A stretch of 64,000 bases of DNA from Methanosarcina vacuolata Z-761 (GTDB lineage: Archaea > Halobacteriota > Methanosarcinia > Methanosarcinales > Methanosarcinaceae): positions 2,790,001 to 2,854,000 of the forward strand of contig NZ_CP009520.1 of the NCBI RefSeq assembly GCF_000969905.1, given 5' to 3'. Under the pieces are notes generated by a model. The model was not told the DNA's origin. It saw only the letters and a program-made list of their open reading frames with translations, and did not search any database. The position numbers and the translations under genes are program-made. Positions 8,348-16,873 of this stretch are shown here, piece by piece. The number at the start of each line of letters is the position of its first letter. Within the stretch, counting starts at the first letter, position 1.

Positions 8348-8754
8348 ATGACCAATGGGCCCTATTTGTTCCCTTTAAGAGGTAGGAACTTCGGAAGGAG
8401 CAACAATGGCAAAGAGTGTAAAAGATTCAGTGAAAAGCGAATGTCAATCTGCAAAGGATTGAATAGTGGTTCAAACTTTGCCCTGATCCAAAAGAATGCT
8501 AACTTACTGATGTTGTTTTCTTGTGTGAACCGAAGCAAACTCACGAATGTAAGGTACTCAAAGACACTGATAGGTGAGAGGCTTACAGACAGTAATGTCA
8601 GTTGGCTATTATCAAGAATCACAAAATCAATTATGCAAATAGCTGATGCCTGGTACAGAAAAGATTTGAAAACACTCGAACCGTATAAAGGGAAACTTTC
8701 AAGTACGGTTCCTGGGGGAGAAATGAGGAGTAATCCTCCCGATTTACCCGACAA
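8348..8754 (+). mobile_element. Group II intron remnant (3' end with domains V and VI, no reverse transcriptase)
   Basis: Positions 8678-8711 form a canonical 34-nt domain V: GAACCGTA pairs with TACGGTTC, the apical helix AAAG/CTTT carries a GAAA tetraloop, and a two-nucleotide bulge follows. Directly after it a GGAG...CTCC hairpin ending in TTTACCCGAC fits domain VI and the 3' splice end. The upstream 300 nt resembles structured intron sequence rather than coding DNA. The 136-residue frame that crosses it, ending NPPDLPD, is the kind of spurious protein often predicted on such introns. The reverse transcriptase/maturase gene and the 5' end (GTGCG) are missing, so the element is dead for autonomous movement. 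Confidence 0.72.
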
Positions 8755-9469: not shown

Positions 9470-10510
9470 TTAAATTGTTTGAGTTCTTATGTAATTAGTT
9501 TTTCAACTGAATTATTAGTTCTGGATGAATAAAATGAGACTGGGCTTATTCGTTAGTCCTTTCTTATGAGTGACGGTTAATTGCAGGAAAACCTTTCAAT
9601 ACGTATCAGGGTTCTGATGCAATCAAGGTTCTCCTGCTTATATATCCCGGCGGAGGATTGTACAAATGAGCCCACAATCGGTTTTTATGTCTTTATAGAT
9701 ATTTATTTAACCTGTGGTTAAATTAGTCAGCATTCAGCTATTGGACTAGCGATTGCTCTTAGCAGTCGCCCCACCAGCCGTCACCACAGCCGCCGCTTTT
9801 AATCTTGCAGGCACGAACTGCTGTTATGCAGCAAGCCTCTTTCTCCTTTTTGCATCCACAACCACAGCCGCCCCAGCCGCCACCAAAGCCGCCAAAGCCG
9901 CCAAAGCCGCCAAAGCCGCCCCAACCGCAGCCGCCGCATCCACAACCATCGAACTTTTTAAAGAATGGAAATCCTCCCATATAACTACCTCCAGATTTTA
10001 TATTTTATTGTTTTATGCTTTTTAGTTAATTTATACAACTTTTTACATATCGGAGCAAATATACTTTTTAGACTGAAGTGTATTTCTCCAATCAAATTAT
10101 ATATCGACTCGCCAACTCTACTGTTATTCCTGACAACCGTATTTTGGTCTGTCTTCGCGTAAAGAGATGCAGATTTAATTTCAGTTGTCAGAAAATACAA
10201 TTTATAATATAATTGTAGATTATATAAGCATAATAGAATAATATGTCCTTAATATTAAATAGTCATTGAAAAAGCTGGGAAATCATGCTCGGTAAAATGC
10301 GTTTAATTTTACGTTTAATTTACGAATTTTAGTTCCTTTAATTTATATAAAATCAGGATTTCAAGCTTCCAATTAATGATTTATTCAAAAATATAGTCTC
10401 TATGGCACAAAGAAATTATATTATCCAATTATAACCTTTTTAGAGGTTTAATACATGTGAATTTAGCAGAGGAAAATACTATTACTTATCTGATTTTTGA
10501 ACTTTAATAC
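9470..10510. repeat. Duplicated segment A carrying a Gly/Trp/Cys peptide gene
   Basis: About 1,040 nt can be matched by eye, with many substitutions and small indels, to 10887-11940. Shared landmarks are GTTT-GA-TCTTATG at the left end, TTAGTCAGCATTCAGCTATTGG before the peptide stop, the peptide gene itself, and GAAAAAGCTGGGAAA near the right end. The non-coding flanks are conserved as well as the gene, so the whole unit was duplicated. Confidence 0.75.
9759..9980 (-). CDS. Gly/Trp/Cys-rich small peptide, paralogue 1 (73 aa)
   Basis: The start ATG is preceded by CTGGAGGTAGTTAT, a strong ribosome binding site conserved in all three paralogues. The product begins MGGFPFFKKF, then has a Cys/Gly block (DGCGCGGCGWGG), about four FGG units, a WGGCGCGCK block, and a C-terminal core CCITAVRACKIKSGGC ending GDGWWGDC. 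There is no signal peptide, transmembrane segment or known domain. Eleven Cys and four Trp in 73 residues suggest metal binding, disulphides or enzymatic modification; this is inference. No modification enzyme or transporter gene lies next to it. Confidence 0.65.
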   Translation of the reverse strand: MGGFPFFKKFDGCGCGGCGWGGFGGFGGFGGFGGGWGGCGCGCKKEKEACCITAVRACKIKSGGCGDGWWGDC

Positions 10511-10886
10511 TCTAATGTGTTTATAAAAAAGTAAATAATTGAGAAAGTTGACTGTTTCTTCTAAACACTTAATTTTCGATTAAATTATTTCTAAAACTGA
10601 ACTAAAAAACTAATCTGAAGCTGTAATCTGAAGCTGTAATCTAAAGCTGTAATCTGAAGCTGTAATTAGGAAAACAAGATGAGACTCTATTGTTGAGTCG
10701 TGTTGAGTCAACCGCAAAATGTCGTATAAAACCGGTTGCAATTATTCAAATTAATGAATCCTTGATGATTGACTCAACAGTATTTAACACTATTATATGA
10801 TTAGCAAGTAGGTAATATGAAAAGTCAGGATAGCTTGTAGAAAAGCAAATTAAATGCAGATCCAAAAACAGATCTGCAAAAATTCT

Positions 10887-11940
10887 CAGAATTATATTGT
10901 TTAAACTCTTATGCGACTGGTTTTTCAATTAAACTGCGTTAATGCTGATGAATAAAGAGAGATGGGCTCATTCATTAATCCATTTTAAAGGATACCGATT
11001 AGTTGCAGAAGAGGTCTTTGAATACATCTATAACTCTGATGCAATCAAGATTTCCCTGATTCTATATCTGGAAAAGGGCTGTATGAATGAGCCACCACTG
11101 GTTTTATGTTTTATATTTGTCTATTCAATCCATGGTTCGATTAGTCAGCATTCAGCTATTGGCCTGGCGATTGCTCTTAACAGTCGCCGCCCCACCAGCC
11201 GTCACCGCAGCCGCCGGATTTAATCTTACAGGCACGAACTGCTGTTATGCATTTAGCCTCGGGCTTACCACATCCACAGCCGCCCCAGCCGCCACCATAG
11301 CCGCCAAAGCCGCCCCAGCCGCCGCCCCAACCGCAGCCGCCGCAACCATCAAATCTTCCTTTTCCAAATAATCCAAATCCTCCACCCATAATATTTACCT
11401 CCATATTTACTATATTTTTATAGATTTTTTTATTATTTTCTTTTTATTTTTATACAATGTTTTATATATTGGGAAAGATATAATTTTAGATTCGAGTACA
11501 TGTTTCTCCAACCAAATTTTATATCGACTCCCCAACTCTATTATTACTCCTGACAATCACGTTGTAACCTATCTTCACTTAAAAAGAAGCAGATTTAACT
11601 TTAATTGCCAGAAAGTACAATCGATAATATAATTGTAAATTATATAAATCAAATAGAATAATAAGTTCTTAACACTAAATAGTCATTGAAAAAGCTGGGA
11701 AACCATGCGCTGATGAATCATGTTTAGTTTTATATTTAATTTATGGAATTTGAGTTTTTAAATCTCTCGAGAAATCAGGACTTATAGTCTGAAATTTAAT
11801 ATTTATGCAAAAATAAAACCTGGATGGTATAGATACGCCATATTCTCTAATTATAATTAATTTGGGGGCTCAAAGGGTATGCATTTAGTAAAAGAAAATA
11901 GTACTACTCATTCTGTTTTTGAACTTTTTCACTTGGGAAA
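10887..11940. repeat. Duplicated segment B carrying a Gly/Trp/Cys peptide gene
   Basis: Partner of the segment at 9470-10510. A third, more diverged and shortened version can be followed from about 12150 to 12850, where TGACCTGGCGATTATTCTTAACA precedes the third peptide stop. Between segments A and B, at 10511-10886, the sequence is AT-rich with a four-fold AATCTGAAGCTGT repeat near 10612-10665 and no gene. Confidence 0.75.
11177..11389 (-). CDS. Gly/Trp/Cys-rich small peptide, paralogue 2 (70 aa)
   Basis: I place the start at the ATG at 11389, because the earlier in-frame Met lies within the ribosome binding site ATGGAGGTAAATATT. The product reads MGGGFGLFGKGRFDG, then CGGCGWGGGWGG, FGGYGGGWGGCGCG, KPEAKC, and the C-terminal core ITAVRACKIKSGGC ending GDGWWGGDC. 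The C-terminal 25 residues are almost identical to paralogue 1, while the Gly-rich middle differs in repeat number, so the C-terminus is under stronger constraint. Function unknown. Confidence 0.65.
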   Translation of the reverse strand: MGGGFGLFGKGRFDGCGGCGWGGGWGGFGGYGGGWGGCGCGKPEAKCITAVRACKIKSGGCGDGWWGGDC

Positions 11941-12194
11941 GTTAAAACTAAAGTATAATATTCCTAAAATAAATTATTCTTACAAAATAGTGAACTTTTG
12001 ATTTAATTAGCCTGAATAGAAACCCGCTTTCAAACACATGAAGCTTGTAGTTGCTAACTTGCAGTTAATAAAATGCATAGCCATCAATTCAAGACAATTA
12101 ATCAGAAGTTATCTTTCTATCTTGAATTGATAGCTATTTTTATTCATCCATACTTAACATTTCACGGGCTCAACGATTGACCTGGCGATTATTC

Positions 12195-12299
12195 TTAACA
12201 CCAATCGCCCCAGCCGCCGCCCCAGCCGCCGCAGCGGCGCCAGCTACGACGCCAGCCCCAGCCGCCGCCCCAGCCGCAGCCACCAAACCATCCACACAT
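12195..12299 (-). CDS. Gly/Trp/Cys-rich mini-peptide, paralogue 3 (34 aa)
   Basis: A 34-residue product begins MCGWFGGCGWGGGWGW, continues RRSWRRCGGWGGG and ends WGDWC, with TAA at 12195-12197. It has eight Trp, four Cys and four Arg. The ribosome binding site CCTGGAGGTAAATATA is the same as for the other two. The conserved AVRACKIK core is missing and a cationic, Trp-rich stretch takes its place, so it may have diverged in role. Cationic Trp/Arg-rich peptides are often membrane-active; that is only an analogy here. The 12300-12992 spacer that follows holds no other gene. Confidence 0.55.
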   Translation of the reverse strand: MCGWFGGCGWGGGWGWRRSWRRCGGWGGGWGDWC

Positions 12300-12992
12300 T
12301 ATATTTACCTCCAGGATTTTACTATGTTATTTTATACTTTTCAGATACTATACAGGTAGGCTTTTAGATTAGAGAATTACACGCTCTAATCAAACTTTTT
12401 CACCCACCCCCAATCATACTTTCATGGCAACTTTTTAGAAATTATTAGAGTACTCATTTCTTTTTAGAGAGAAACAGTTCTCCCATGTTCTCCCATGAAA
12501 GTACAATTAAACATATAATTAGAAATTATATAAAAGATCTAGAATAACTGTTTCTGAATATAAATAATCTATATAAAATTGAAGAAACCCTCTATCAATT
12601 AAACAAGCTTACTTTTGAAATTACTCTACAATCCCTAGTTCTATAAAAACTCTCAATAAATCAGGAATAAAAATCTGTAATTGAATATTCAGCCAAAAAA
12701 TATCACCTTAATAATCTCTATCAGCTCTATTTCCTGGCTAAATCCAATTTAAAGCCTGAAAATAACTGAATTTTGTTGAAAAAGTAGTACAACTCTTTTT
12801 AGTATTTAACTTTAGAACTTTAGTCTTTTTATTTTATGCAAAATATCAATATAAAGGGCGACGATTAAATAGGATAATTTTTTTGATTCAGCTTATGAAT
12901 AAAAAAAATCGAATTTGTCAATTTATTGTCTTTTTATTAGTTTCAGTAGAATCATTAGCACTTTTAATTAGATCGTTTTCTTTTTAAAAATC

Positions 12993-13682
12993 TCAGATCC
13001 CTATCAGTTTCTTTGCCCATTTCAATTTCTTTTTCTTAATCGGGTTTACATTGTTATCTTCAAAATCAAAACCTGCTAGTCTGATTTTATTAGCTCCAAA
13101 TTCCCTGGCTACAAAAAAACATCGGTCTCCATCACTGAAGCCGCCAAAATTATAGATATCATCAAAAGGCTTTGCCTGGGTAGTTGCAATAAATCGTTTA
13201 AAGCGGGGAACATATTTCTCAAGCTTATCGATATTATCCCCATGCGCATGAATAAGGACTATTGAGCCCTTTTCACAGGCAAGGATCTCTTTTTCGATAT
13301 CAGCTTCGGAATTGCCGTCAAGGTCGGTACAGATGACCTCAGGCACTATGCCCATATCCATTAGTACAGCAGCAGCTCCATCGGCTGCAATTACCGTAAA
13401 AGCAGAAAAATTGATTTCCAAAAGGTCACTCCTGAGCCCTGGAGCATTTCCACAGACCAGGACAGGCTTTCCGGAAATTACTGCTTTGAGCTCAGACAGG
13501 CTGACCGTGTTTTCTTCTGTCAGCTTGTGGGAAAGGAAGAGAGCTGCCTTTTCATCGCCTTTTCGGTCGAACCCGAAATCCTCAAGGATTCTTTCGTAAA
13601 TCGGTTCCCAGGTAGCAAAATCCATATGAATCAGTTTCCTTTCCGTTTTATAGGTTGAATTCAAAACTTCTTTAATTTTCAA
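12993..13682 (-). CDS. mptE: 6-hydroxymethyl-7,8-dihydropterin diphosphokinase (archaeal MptE, DUF115)
   Basis: A 229-residue protein of the DUF115 family. Visible motifs are VLVCGNAPGLRSDL (nucleotide/pterin loop), the diagnostic CTDLDGN near residue 117, IVLIHAHGDN, and the C-terminal RCFFVAREFGANKIRLAGFDF. MptE transfers pyrophosphate from ATP to 6-hydroxymethyl-7,8-dihydropterin in the synthesis of tetrahydromethanopterin/sarcinapterin, the C1 carrier of methanogenesis. It acts in the cytoplasm. The gene ends 14 nt after the IleRS gene on the same strand, so the two are probably co-transcribed. Confidence 0.85.
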   Translation of the reverse strand: MKIKEVLNSTYKTERKLIHMDFATWEPIYERILEDFGFDRKGDEKAALFLSHKLTEENTVSLSELKAVISGKPVLVCGNAPGLRSDLLEINFSAFTVIAADGAAAVLMDMGIVPEVICTDLDGNSEADIEKEILACEKGSIVLIHAHGDNIDKLEKYVPRFKRFIATTQAKPFDDIYNFGGFSDGDRCFFVAREFGANKIRLAGFDFEDNNVNPIKKKKLKWAKKLIGI

Positions 13683-13696
13683 CTCTTTTTAAGAGT

Positions 13697-16600
13697 TTAT
13701 TTCTTTGCAATTCCCATCTTCATGGCAATGCCTTCGACATCCCAATCCTTTACAAGGGCGCCGGAAACATCGATATCACTGCCAAGGTCAAGGATATCGG
13801 CTCTTACCTCTTCTGCAATCAGGTCTTTGAGGGTTTCAACAAGTTTCAGGACTCTTTCATCTTTGATCTGGACTGAGGCACGGATGTTTTCATCCACTAC
13901 AAGGTCAAGTTCTTTCCGCATATCCTGAAGCCTGCGAATTACTTCCCTTGCATACCCTTCAGCTTCCAGTTCCGGAGTAAGGTTTGCGTCCACATAGACA
14001 AGACCGGCATCAGACTCTGCACTCGCTGTACTTTCTGGCAGAGTTTCTTTGAAGTTTGCCATACCCGGAGTAACTGTAACCGTTGTTCCGTCTGCAAGGG
14101 AGAGTTCAAACTCACCAGCCTCAGCAAAGGCTTTCTTCAAAGCAAAACCGTCAACTTTCTGCAGGGCAGGAATGACTTTTCCTGCATCCTTCTTAAACAC
14201 AGGACCTATTTTGCTCGGGTCAGGAATTACTTCAAGCCCAAGTTCATCCCAGCTCTCACCAACTGGCGTCAGGACAATTGCCTTGGAATTTGTCTGATCC
14301 ATAAGGACTGAGCGCAGTTTCTCGACAGCCTTTGCTGAATCCTCATTTTCAGGGGAAACAACTATTCGGGAAACAGGCCACCTGAGCTTTCTTCCTGCTT
14401 TCTGGCGGGCGTTTGAAGCAGCTTCCACAATAGAACGTGCAGTATTCATGGCCGCTTCGAGTTCAGGGTCAAGATAGGCTTCATTGACTTTTGGCCAGTC
14501 GCACATATGAACCGATTCCAGTGCATTCGGATCTACATTTCTCATAAGGTTCTGATACATCTCTTCAGCCAGGTAAGGCATAAAAGGAGAGATCAATTTT
14601 GTAAGGGTTACGTAGACTTCATAAAGCACGCAGTAAGCTGCAAGCTTGTCAGGGTCATCAGCTTCAGTCCAGGTTCTCGGGCGGATAAGCTGAATATACC
14701 AGCGGGAGAGGTCCTCCAGAGTAAATTCAAGAATCTCACGCACTGCCTTATGCAAAAAGTACCCACTCATTGCTTCATCTACGGCCTTAACAACGGACTG
14801 AACTCTTGAGAGAATCCACCTATCCTCTTCTCTGAGAGCGTCTTTTACGGAATCAAGGCTAACCTTAAGCGGATCAAAATTATCAAGTGCCATATAAGGC
14901 AGCGGGAACCTGAAGACATTCCAGAGGATATTGATTGAACGATTAACGGTTTCTACTTCTTCCAGGTTAAATTTAAGGTCATCCCAGGGCGCACTTGAAG
15001 AAAGCACATAGGCACGCAGAGTGTCAGCTCCGTATCTGTCGATGATCTCAAGCGGGGAAACAACGTTTCCAAGGCTTTTGGACATTTTCTTTCCGCCGGC
15101 ATCAAGCGTAAAACCATGCATGAGTACACTCTTGTAAGGAGCTTTTCCGAAGCCCACCATACTTGCTCCGAGCTGGGAGTAGAACCAACCGCGAGTCTGG
15201 TCATGTCCCTCAGTGATAAAGTCAGCAGGCCACCATTTATCGAACTCCTCCCTGGTCTGAGGGAACTTCAGGGTAGCCCAGGAAGCAACAGCCGAATCAA
15301 ACCAGACATCGAAAACGTCTTCAACACGTTTTTTCTCTCCGCCGCACTCACAGGGAATAGTTAGTTTGTCCACATAGGGGCGGTGAAGTTCAACATCGCC
15401 GACTATTCCGGATTTTTCCAGCAGCTCGGCTTTAGTTCCTACTACCTCAAGTTTTCCGCATTTCTTGCACTTCCAGACCGGAATCGGAATTCCCCAGTAG
15501 CGCTGCCTGGAAATGCACCAGTCTCGGGCACCTTCTACCCAGGTCCTGAATCTGGCTGAACCTGCCCAGTCAGGGTACCAGTCTACGGCATCAATTGCCT
15601 CAAGCATTTTGTCCTTTATCTCTGTAACCTTGAGGAACCACTGCTCGGTTGCAAGGTAGATTATAGGCGTTTTGCAGCGCCAGCAGTGCCCGTACCTGTG
15701 AGTAACCGTTCCTTCTGCAAGCAGCTTGTTGCGTTTTCTCAGGTCTTCAATAACGATCGGGTTTGCCTCTCTGACGTTCTTCCCCGCATATTCCCCGGCT
15801 TCTTCAGTATAGGCACCGTTCGGGCCCACAGGGCAGAGGATTGGAAGGTTATACTTCACGCCAACGTTAAAGTCATCCATACCATGCCCTGGGGCAATAT
15901 GTACACAGCCTGTGTTTTCTGCAGTTACGTAATCGGCAAGATAAATGCCATGCTTTATCTCATTCTGCACAGGCACCAGGTCCCCAACAGGGCTTTCATA
16001 CTCAAGTTTCGTCAGGTCTTCCCCGAGCATTGTCTCAAGCACTTCGTAGTCAACATACCTGCCCTGTTTAAGGACGTTCTCGATCAGGTCGGTAGCTGCA
16101 ATCAAAATCTCTTCAGAGCCGTCCTGCCTGATTGCCCTGAATTTTGAGTATTCAAAACCAGGATGTACGGCTACAGCTACGTTTGCGGGAATTGTCCAGG
16201 GGGTTGTTGTCCAGATGACTATGAAAGTATTTTCTTCACCTTTGATCTTAAACTTCACATAGATTGAAGGGTCTGTCCTCTCAGCATATTCGACCTCGGA
16301 GTCTGCAATTGCAGTCTCACAGCGAGGGCACCAGTTGACTGAACGTTTGCCCACGTCCAGAAGGTCTTTCTCACTGGCCTGCTTGAGGGTCCACCAGGCA
16401 GCTTCAATGTAATCGTCTTTTAAGGTCATGTAGGGGGCATCCCATTGCATCCAGACCCCTAACCTCTGGAACTGTTCAGTCATTTCCTGCTTCTGGTTGA
16501 TGGCAAATTCCTTACATTTCTCAATAAAATTCTCTACCCCGAAGCTCTCAATGTCCTTTTTGGACTTGAAGCCGAGCACGCCTTCAACTTTGACCTCAAT

Positions 16601-16873
16601 CGGCAGGCCGTGCATATCCCAGCCAGGACGCTCGAGAATATTACGGTTATTCATGGAGTAATAGCGAAGAATGGAATCTTTAATGATCTTATTCCAGGCA
16701 GTTCCCAGGTGGATATGTCCGGTCGTATACGGGGGGCCGTCAACAAAAAAAAGTCTTTTTCCAGTCTTGCGGTGCTCTCGGGTCTTTCTATAAGCATCGC
16801 TATCTTTCCAGAGCTGCGTTATCTTTTTTTCGATTTGCTCTGCGTTGTACTTGGCAGTGATTTCTTTTATCAT
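13697..16873 (-). CDS. ileS: Isoleucyl-tRNA synthetase
   Basis: A 1,058-residue class I aminoacyl-tRNA synthetase. The HIGH signature appears as HIHLGT at residues 53-58 and the KMSKS loop as KMSKSLGN in the second third. The CP1 editing domain between them carries [16 protein letters not shown], and the C-terminal anticodon-binding domain is full length. Zinc-ligand pairs are visible in WCPRC and WKCKKCGK. The archaeal/eukaryotic-type length and the extended C-terminus fit the family. The gene precedes mptE and is separated by 65 nt from a divergent truncated recombinase. Confidence 0.97.

Follow-up and report, generated by a model that had tools for sequence, protein, structure and literature searches.

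Small Gly/Trp/Cys-rich peptide genes of Methanosarcina within a shared promoter, leader and 3′ hairpin frame

The closest described counterparts of the genes reported here come from the same genus. As set out in the main text of a Ribo-seq study, Methanosarcina mazei has 314 unannotated translated sORFs, many of them intergenic and conserved only in Methanosarcina, together with dual-function small RNAs (PMC11456600). Its spRNAs and dual-function small mRNAs are, like the transcripts predicted for the cassettes described below, short and encode small proteins; no family in which interchangeable peptides share a promoter, a leader and a 3′ hairpin was found in the main text of that paper (PMC11456600). 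The spRNA class comprises short translated transcripts; for our cassettes, the sequence comparisons show protein-level selection on the ORFs. A second parallel is offered by the type I toxins, small, hydrophobic and cationic peptides encoded by tandemly duplicated genes: zorO, ldr and ibs resemble the cassettes in being short peptide genes, often duplicated in tandem, on structured mRNAs, and the 5′ UTR of zorO sequesters its ribosome binding site (PMC8309996). These toxins are bacterial, whereas the cassettes are archaeal. In composition, two further groups come close. Metallothioneins are small and Cys-rich, with Cys-x-Cys motifs and few aromatic residues, and silkmoth chorion proteins are multi-copy, Gly/Cys-rich structural proteins with Gly-aromatic and Cys-Gly repeats around a conserved segment. 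The likeness to chorion proteins is one of composition only; unlike them, our peptides are archaeal, showed no export signal and are encoded by mRNAs with structured ends.

The window, that is, the whole 64-kb stretch of DNA analyzed, belongs to a genome of 4.56 Mb in two contigs and contains three peptide genes:

9759..9980, minus strand: peptide gene 1, 73 aa, MGGFPFF class; GGAGGT at 9987-9992
11177..11389, minus strand: peptide gene 2, 70 aa, MGGGFGLF class; GGAGGT at 11397-11402
12195..12299, minus strand: peptide gene 3, 34 aa, small Trp/Gly/Cys class; GGAGGT at 12307-12312

An earlier note on this DNA had proposed peptides of 73, 70 and 34 residues with GGAGGT ribosome binding sites and an extreme Gly/Trp/Cys content. 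The three ORFs were confirmed, with GGAGGT a few bases 5′ of the ATG in each; an upstream in-frame ATG in gene 2 allows an alternative product of 75 aa. Among the 13 GGAGG-ATG ORFs of at least 20 aa in the whole 64 kb, these three alone have a Gly+Trp+Cys fraction above 0.2, and no such ORF arose in any of 300 dinucleotide shuffles of the segment. The C-terminus said to be shared by two of the peptides was likewise found, as CITAVRACKIKSGGCGDGWWG(G)DC, in peptides 1 and 2, and a Gly/Cys-rich middle is flanked by conserved ends. The tandem duplications of about 1 kb, including upstream regions, that the same note described hold for genes 1 and 2, whose repeat units are spaced 1,418-1,422 bp, with blocks 79-90% identical. 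They do not extend to gene 3, which shares with the other units just a 62-nt upstream block (76% identity, 886 bp away) and a 31-nt start region, so that the figure of about 1 kb is approximate.

Orthologues from other Methanosarcina species were compared in pairwise codon alignments, in which the differences at codon positions 1, 2 and 3 sum to 586, 627 and 1,364. Since the differences fall mostly at third positions, the ORFs are constrained as protein. The dN/dS ratio, for which values near 1 had been named as evidence against the coding reading, was mostly 0.05-0.5 and reached 0.8 in some pairs. These pairs are not independent of one another, and guiding the alignments by protein favors low dN, but near-identical pairs show the same pattern, with for example 0, 0 and 3 differences. 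The reading thus came through this test. The 9-base direct repeats within the ORFs would fit GC-rich, low-complexity repeats that are open by chance, but this explanation is contradicted by the third-position excess and by the shuffles, and starts, ends and gene order are conserved across species; we consider it hardly credible. Judged from these comparisons, the genes for the three unusual peptides are genuine and under selection, and they belong to a family found across Methanosarcina in which conserved RNA hairpins enclose small peptides that change rapidly.

Upstream of the array lie two genes that also adjoin it in other species:

12993..13682, minus strand: mptE-like gene, which precedes the array in other species (Pfam MptE-like, E 3e-30; synteny)
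13697..16873, minus strand: ileS-like class I tRNA synthetase gene (Pfam tRNA-synt_1; synteny)

A Pfam scan of nine neighboring ORFs identified beta-helix, MFS, hydrolase, LysE, MptE, tRNA synthetase and TPR proteins, two ORFs being without match, and found neither a modifying enzyme, in agreement with the earlier note, nor a peptide exporter beside the array. For the peptides themselves, searches of Pfam, NCBIfam, PHROGs, PADLOC and PDB sequences gave nothing significant, which bears out the statement that no known family fits; two peptides from outside the window gave sub-threshold Pfam scores (E 0.07 and 0.14). The comparison with microcin B17 made in the earlier note fared worse. A Gly/Cys-rich middle between conserved ends would suit RiPP precursors, but a nearby modifying enzyme, by which such systems are recognized, is missing from the neighboring ORFs, the neighbors kept across species are ileS and mptE, the peptides match no family, and nothing found favors modification. 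We therefore regard a RiPP as very unlikely. The note's suggestions of metal-binding peptides and of secreted adhesives likewise gained no support. In several species mptE also occurs as broken copies close to the peptide array, and further cassettes follow some of these (examples are G028:C2:1392214-1395932, G029:C2:1299039-1299518, G013:C68:22596-23005 and G022:C21:172473-172947); the duplicated segment therefore often included mptE. On the other side of the array, window positions 8676-8752 (plus strand) match group II intron domain V (Rfam RF00029, 48.3 bits). This match, which resembles the remnant of an intron, falls just within the end of an ORF of 136 aa that has no Pfam match.

The earlier note covered the coding core only, and missed the promoter, structured leader, 3′ hairpins, genus-wide spread and varied peptides. 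In each cassette the promoter is followed by a leader of about 200 nt, which begins with a long hairpin, and by a strong Shine-Dalgarno site; the peptide gene comes next, and after it a 3′ hairpin. In the aligned upstream regions the promoter reads TTATTCTA-N6-TTATATAAT and lies about 230-300 nt upstream of the start codon; it has exactly three exact matches in the window's own genome, each 5′ of one window gene. The non-coding features of the window are as follows:

10116..10241, minus strand: promoter (10219-10241) and leader hairpin 1 of gene 1 (covariance model, E 6.4e-10; covariation)
11537..11661, minus strand: promoter (11639-11661) and leader hairpin 1 of gene 2 (covariance model, E 7.9e-11; covariation)
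12411..12547, minus strand: promoter (12525-12547) and leader hairpin 1 of gene 3 (covariance model, E 2.8e-11)
9993..10115, minus strand: remaining leader of gene 1, with hairpin 2 and an A/T-rich stretch before the Shine-Dalgarno site (single-sequence fold)
11403..11536, minus strand: remaining leader of gene 2, with hairpin 2 (single-sequence fold)
12313..12410, minus strand: remaining leader of gene 3, with a small GATTAGAG/CTCTAATC-type hairpin (alignment inspection)
9542..9672, minus strand: long 3′ hairpin of gene 1, about 130 nt (profile match, fold and alignment fold)
10964..11093, minus strand: long 3′ hairpin of gene 2, of the 130-nt type (profile match, fold and alignment fold)
12077..12137, minus strand: 61-nt 3′ hairpin of gene 3, ATAGCTATC..GATGGCTAT, of a type seen 3′ of cassettes of other species

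Hairpin 1 is situated 3′ of the TATA box, close to the expected transcription start. Its two arms vary in concert: over 25 sequences, 84.9% of its cells were paired, compared with 33-42% when the partners were slid, with 19 double changes and an equally high value in 1 of 500 shuffles; in the 16 sequences of the window clade, 89.1% were paired (31-55% when slid). RNAalifold independently recovered the hairpin 1 helix. When applied to the whole leader it returned no structure, because leader length varies, and the hairpins were then analyzed singly. Hairpin 2, before the Shine-Dalgarno site, is clear in the window clade and variable elsewhere, as judged from single-sequence folds only. The covariation of the 61-nt 3′ hairpin is modest, its percentage of pairing being far above slid partners but not above column shuffles, and a second match to that of gene 3 was not found in the same genome. 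A further candidate, pairing by which the hairpin 1 loop would hide the Shine-Dalgarno site, was discarded since it did not exceed shuffles (median rank 0.32; 2 of 54 at ≤0.05). The cassettes were unmatched in Rfam, at E 1 for the window segment and at gathering scores for six loci from other species.

About 35 bp upstream of the promoters are conserved as well (TTTTCAATGACTATTTAATATTAAG; for example, window positions 10242-10275 and 11662-11695) and include the palindrome TTAATATTAA, which is possibly a regulator site. Additionally, a 13-bp repeat, TAATCTGAAGCTG, forms a short array at window positions 10598-10675, upstream of the gene 1 promoter.

Within the window, a covariance model of the promoter plus hairpin 1 (R1) picked out the three genes with no other noteworthy match. 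Among 31 Methanosarcina genomes it identified 101 copies at E up to 0.01, spread over 25 of them, or about four cassettes per carrying genome; the copy number is approximate, being summed from a table of matches that includes draft contigs and obtained with a model trained on members. For this last reason, the informative part of the search lies in the genomes without matches: six of the 31 Methanosarcina genomes lacked a copy at this threshold, and 155 other genomes of the order gave a single weak match (E 0.0026). The fourth cassette of the window's own genome (locus L234, G000:C2:2767298-2767433, plus strand), about 23 kb to the left of the window, encodes a 64-aa Gly/Cys peptide with an Arg-rich end. 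Recognizable homologues of the peptides occur in eight further genomes of the genus (G002, G010, G016, G020, G023, G028, G029 and, in divergent form, G024), and two named Methanosarcina MAGs also carry the three genes. The homologues sit behind ileS-mptE, with the order mostly kept: the small Trp/Gly/Cys peptides, one or two in number, come first, followed by the MGGGFGLF peptide and finally the MGGFPFF peptide. In some cases a member is lost or cut short, or a second MGGFPFF gene takes its place. One extra copy in G010 lies on a different contig, where mptE is absent. There are also paralogues with His/Arg-rich ends, including His/Cys-rich ones, at a second spot close to a thioredoxin gene (neighbors named from their sequences). 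Weak peptide-profile matches in G001, G007 and one G013 contig had no convincing peptide ORF, and a motif match in another genus (G041) was taken as chance, because no Gly/Trp/Cys ORF with a ribosome binding site is found there.

In other Methanosarcina genomes, the position behind mptE is occupied by peptides that are similar in composition but lack recognizable homology, again introduced by GGAGGTAAATATA-ATG; the aligned upstream regions, with their common promoter, show that they belong to the family. The cassettes keep near-invariant Shine-Dalgarno sites and starts. G014 carries two identical tandem copies of a Gly/Trp/Cys peptide of other sequence, MCCGFGFNNWGWGFRHRFWGRGCGCGWGGGCGGWGGC. 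The same frame also contains Phe/Tyr-rich peptides of 25-27 aa, such as MGFFSLYYNKIIAYYESTQLYIWAGWD and MGYFTLYYSNYKVVYERTKLYMRARW (the latter three times in tandem in G025), with Cys absent from both members checked, as well as cationic Cys/aromatic peptides such as the very hydrophobic MCFFFFRFICIRIRCCVPRFYWRCC. Identical tandem copies are frequent, and copies inside one unit have a ribosome binding site each and no new leader. Near or behind some cassettes are proteins with a signal-peptide-like start and a Gly/His/Cys-rich or repeat-rich body (L118 2580-2861; downstream of the model matches at L200, L241 and L249). The retention of the RNA ends where the peptides are no longer recognizable, and the dual-function precedents of M. 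mazei in the main text cited (PMC11456600), would fit a regulatory RNA as the main product of the hairpin-framed transcript, the peptide being secondary. The protein-level selection on the ORFs, the near-invariance of Shine-Dalgarno sites and starts, and tandem copies that repeat the ORF but not the leader make this improbable.

The variety of the peptides also bears on what they could do. A membrane-active or toxic small peptide, its mRNA silenced by its own folding and by an as-yet-unrecognized antisense RNA as in type I systems, would account for the structured leader, for the tandem duplication of short genes at an intergenic spot and for the very hydrophobic cationic peptides of some species, traits that agree with those described for type I toxins, including the zorO 5′ UTR (PMC8309996). 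Such toxins are hydrophobic peptides of <60 aa with a predicted transmembrane helix, whereas two of the three window peptides exceed 60 aa and a 19-residue hydropathy scan found no hydrophobic or transmembrane segment in any of them (best means 0.55, 0.31 and -0.36 for peptides 1-3). Purifying selection on the ORFs is also at odds with this reading, no antisense gene was identified, and the sequestration known from the zorO leader was not found for the hairpin 1 loop and the Shine-Dalgarno site. A toxin is unlikely, although the cationic hydrophobic peptides of other species lend it some weight.

Storage or buffering of metal through Cys-x-Cys clusters, as in metallothioneins, would fit the small size of the window peptides, their Cys content of 11-15%, the Cys-Gly-Cys runs of peptides 1 and 2 and the His/Cys-rich paralogues beside the thioredoxin gene. 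Peptides 1-3, however, have 3, 1 and 0 Cys-x-Cys motifs, respectively, and are rich in Trp, Phe and Gly, with 14-26% aromatic residues, which is not the composition of that class. Several members of the family are Cys-poor, the two Phe/Tyr-rich ones checked having no Cys at all, and the structured RNA frame is a further difference. We consider a metallothionein-like role quite improbable. AlphaFold2, run on peptide 1 with peptide 2 as the sole alignment row, gave no confident fold (mean pLDDT 45.6), a result that says little with so shallow an alignment of two window peptides.

We tentatively favor, as plausible at somewhat less than even chances, a Methanosarcina-specific family of stand-alone, hairpin-protected and regulated mRNAs for small intracellular peptides. 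Both RNA ends would shield the mRNA and interact with a factor or ligand controlling the timing of its synthesis or translation; the peptide would be made in quantity under some condition, and identical tandem copies would raise its dose. The Gly/Trp/Cys peptides, with a net charge of +3, might act inside the cell without enzymatic modification, and perhaps by composition (thiols, aromatics and charge) rather than through a fixed fold, with metal binding or self-association at membranes or nucleic acid as the activity that we would tentatively put first. Peptide activity is the weakest step of this proposal. A role set by composition is preferred to a toxin because selection is purifying at preserved composition and because of the dose effect of tandem copies. 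Nevertheless, a Cys/Gly role leaves the Phe/Tyr-rich and the cationic hydrophobic members unexplained, the six genomes without a copy do not fit readily, and for the leader a function in sequestering the Shine-Dalgarno site through the hairpin 1 loop was not found.

It is possible, though on balance rather doubtful, that the cassettes represent a new archaeal gene class, in which a conserved RNA chassis of promoter, 5′ hairpins and 3′ hairpin would carry interchangeable, fast-evolving peptides, mostly at one chromosomal spot, with the RNA ends providing common control over a repertoire of peptides particular to each species. Searches of the literature by composition, electron-transfer and small-protein terms did not find the family reported. 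For the majority of small methanogen proteins no function is known, and their discovery has proceeded case by case. The cassettes, by contrast, can be defined from sequence alone as a genus-wide, regulon-like set with one promoter and one structured leader, so that a single deletion or RNA-binding assay would inform on all of its members. The set is also a clear case of mRNA untranslated ends that are better conserved than the encoded protein; since these ends outlast protein similarity, searches by protein homology miss most of the family.
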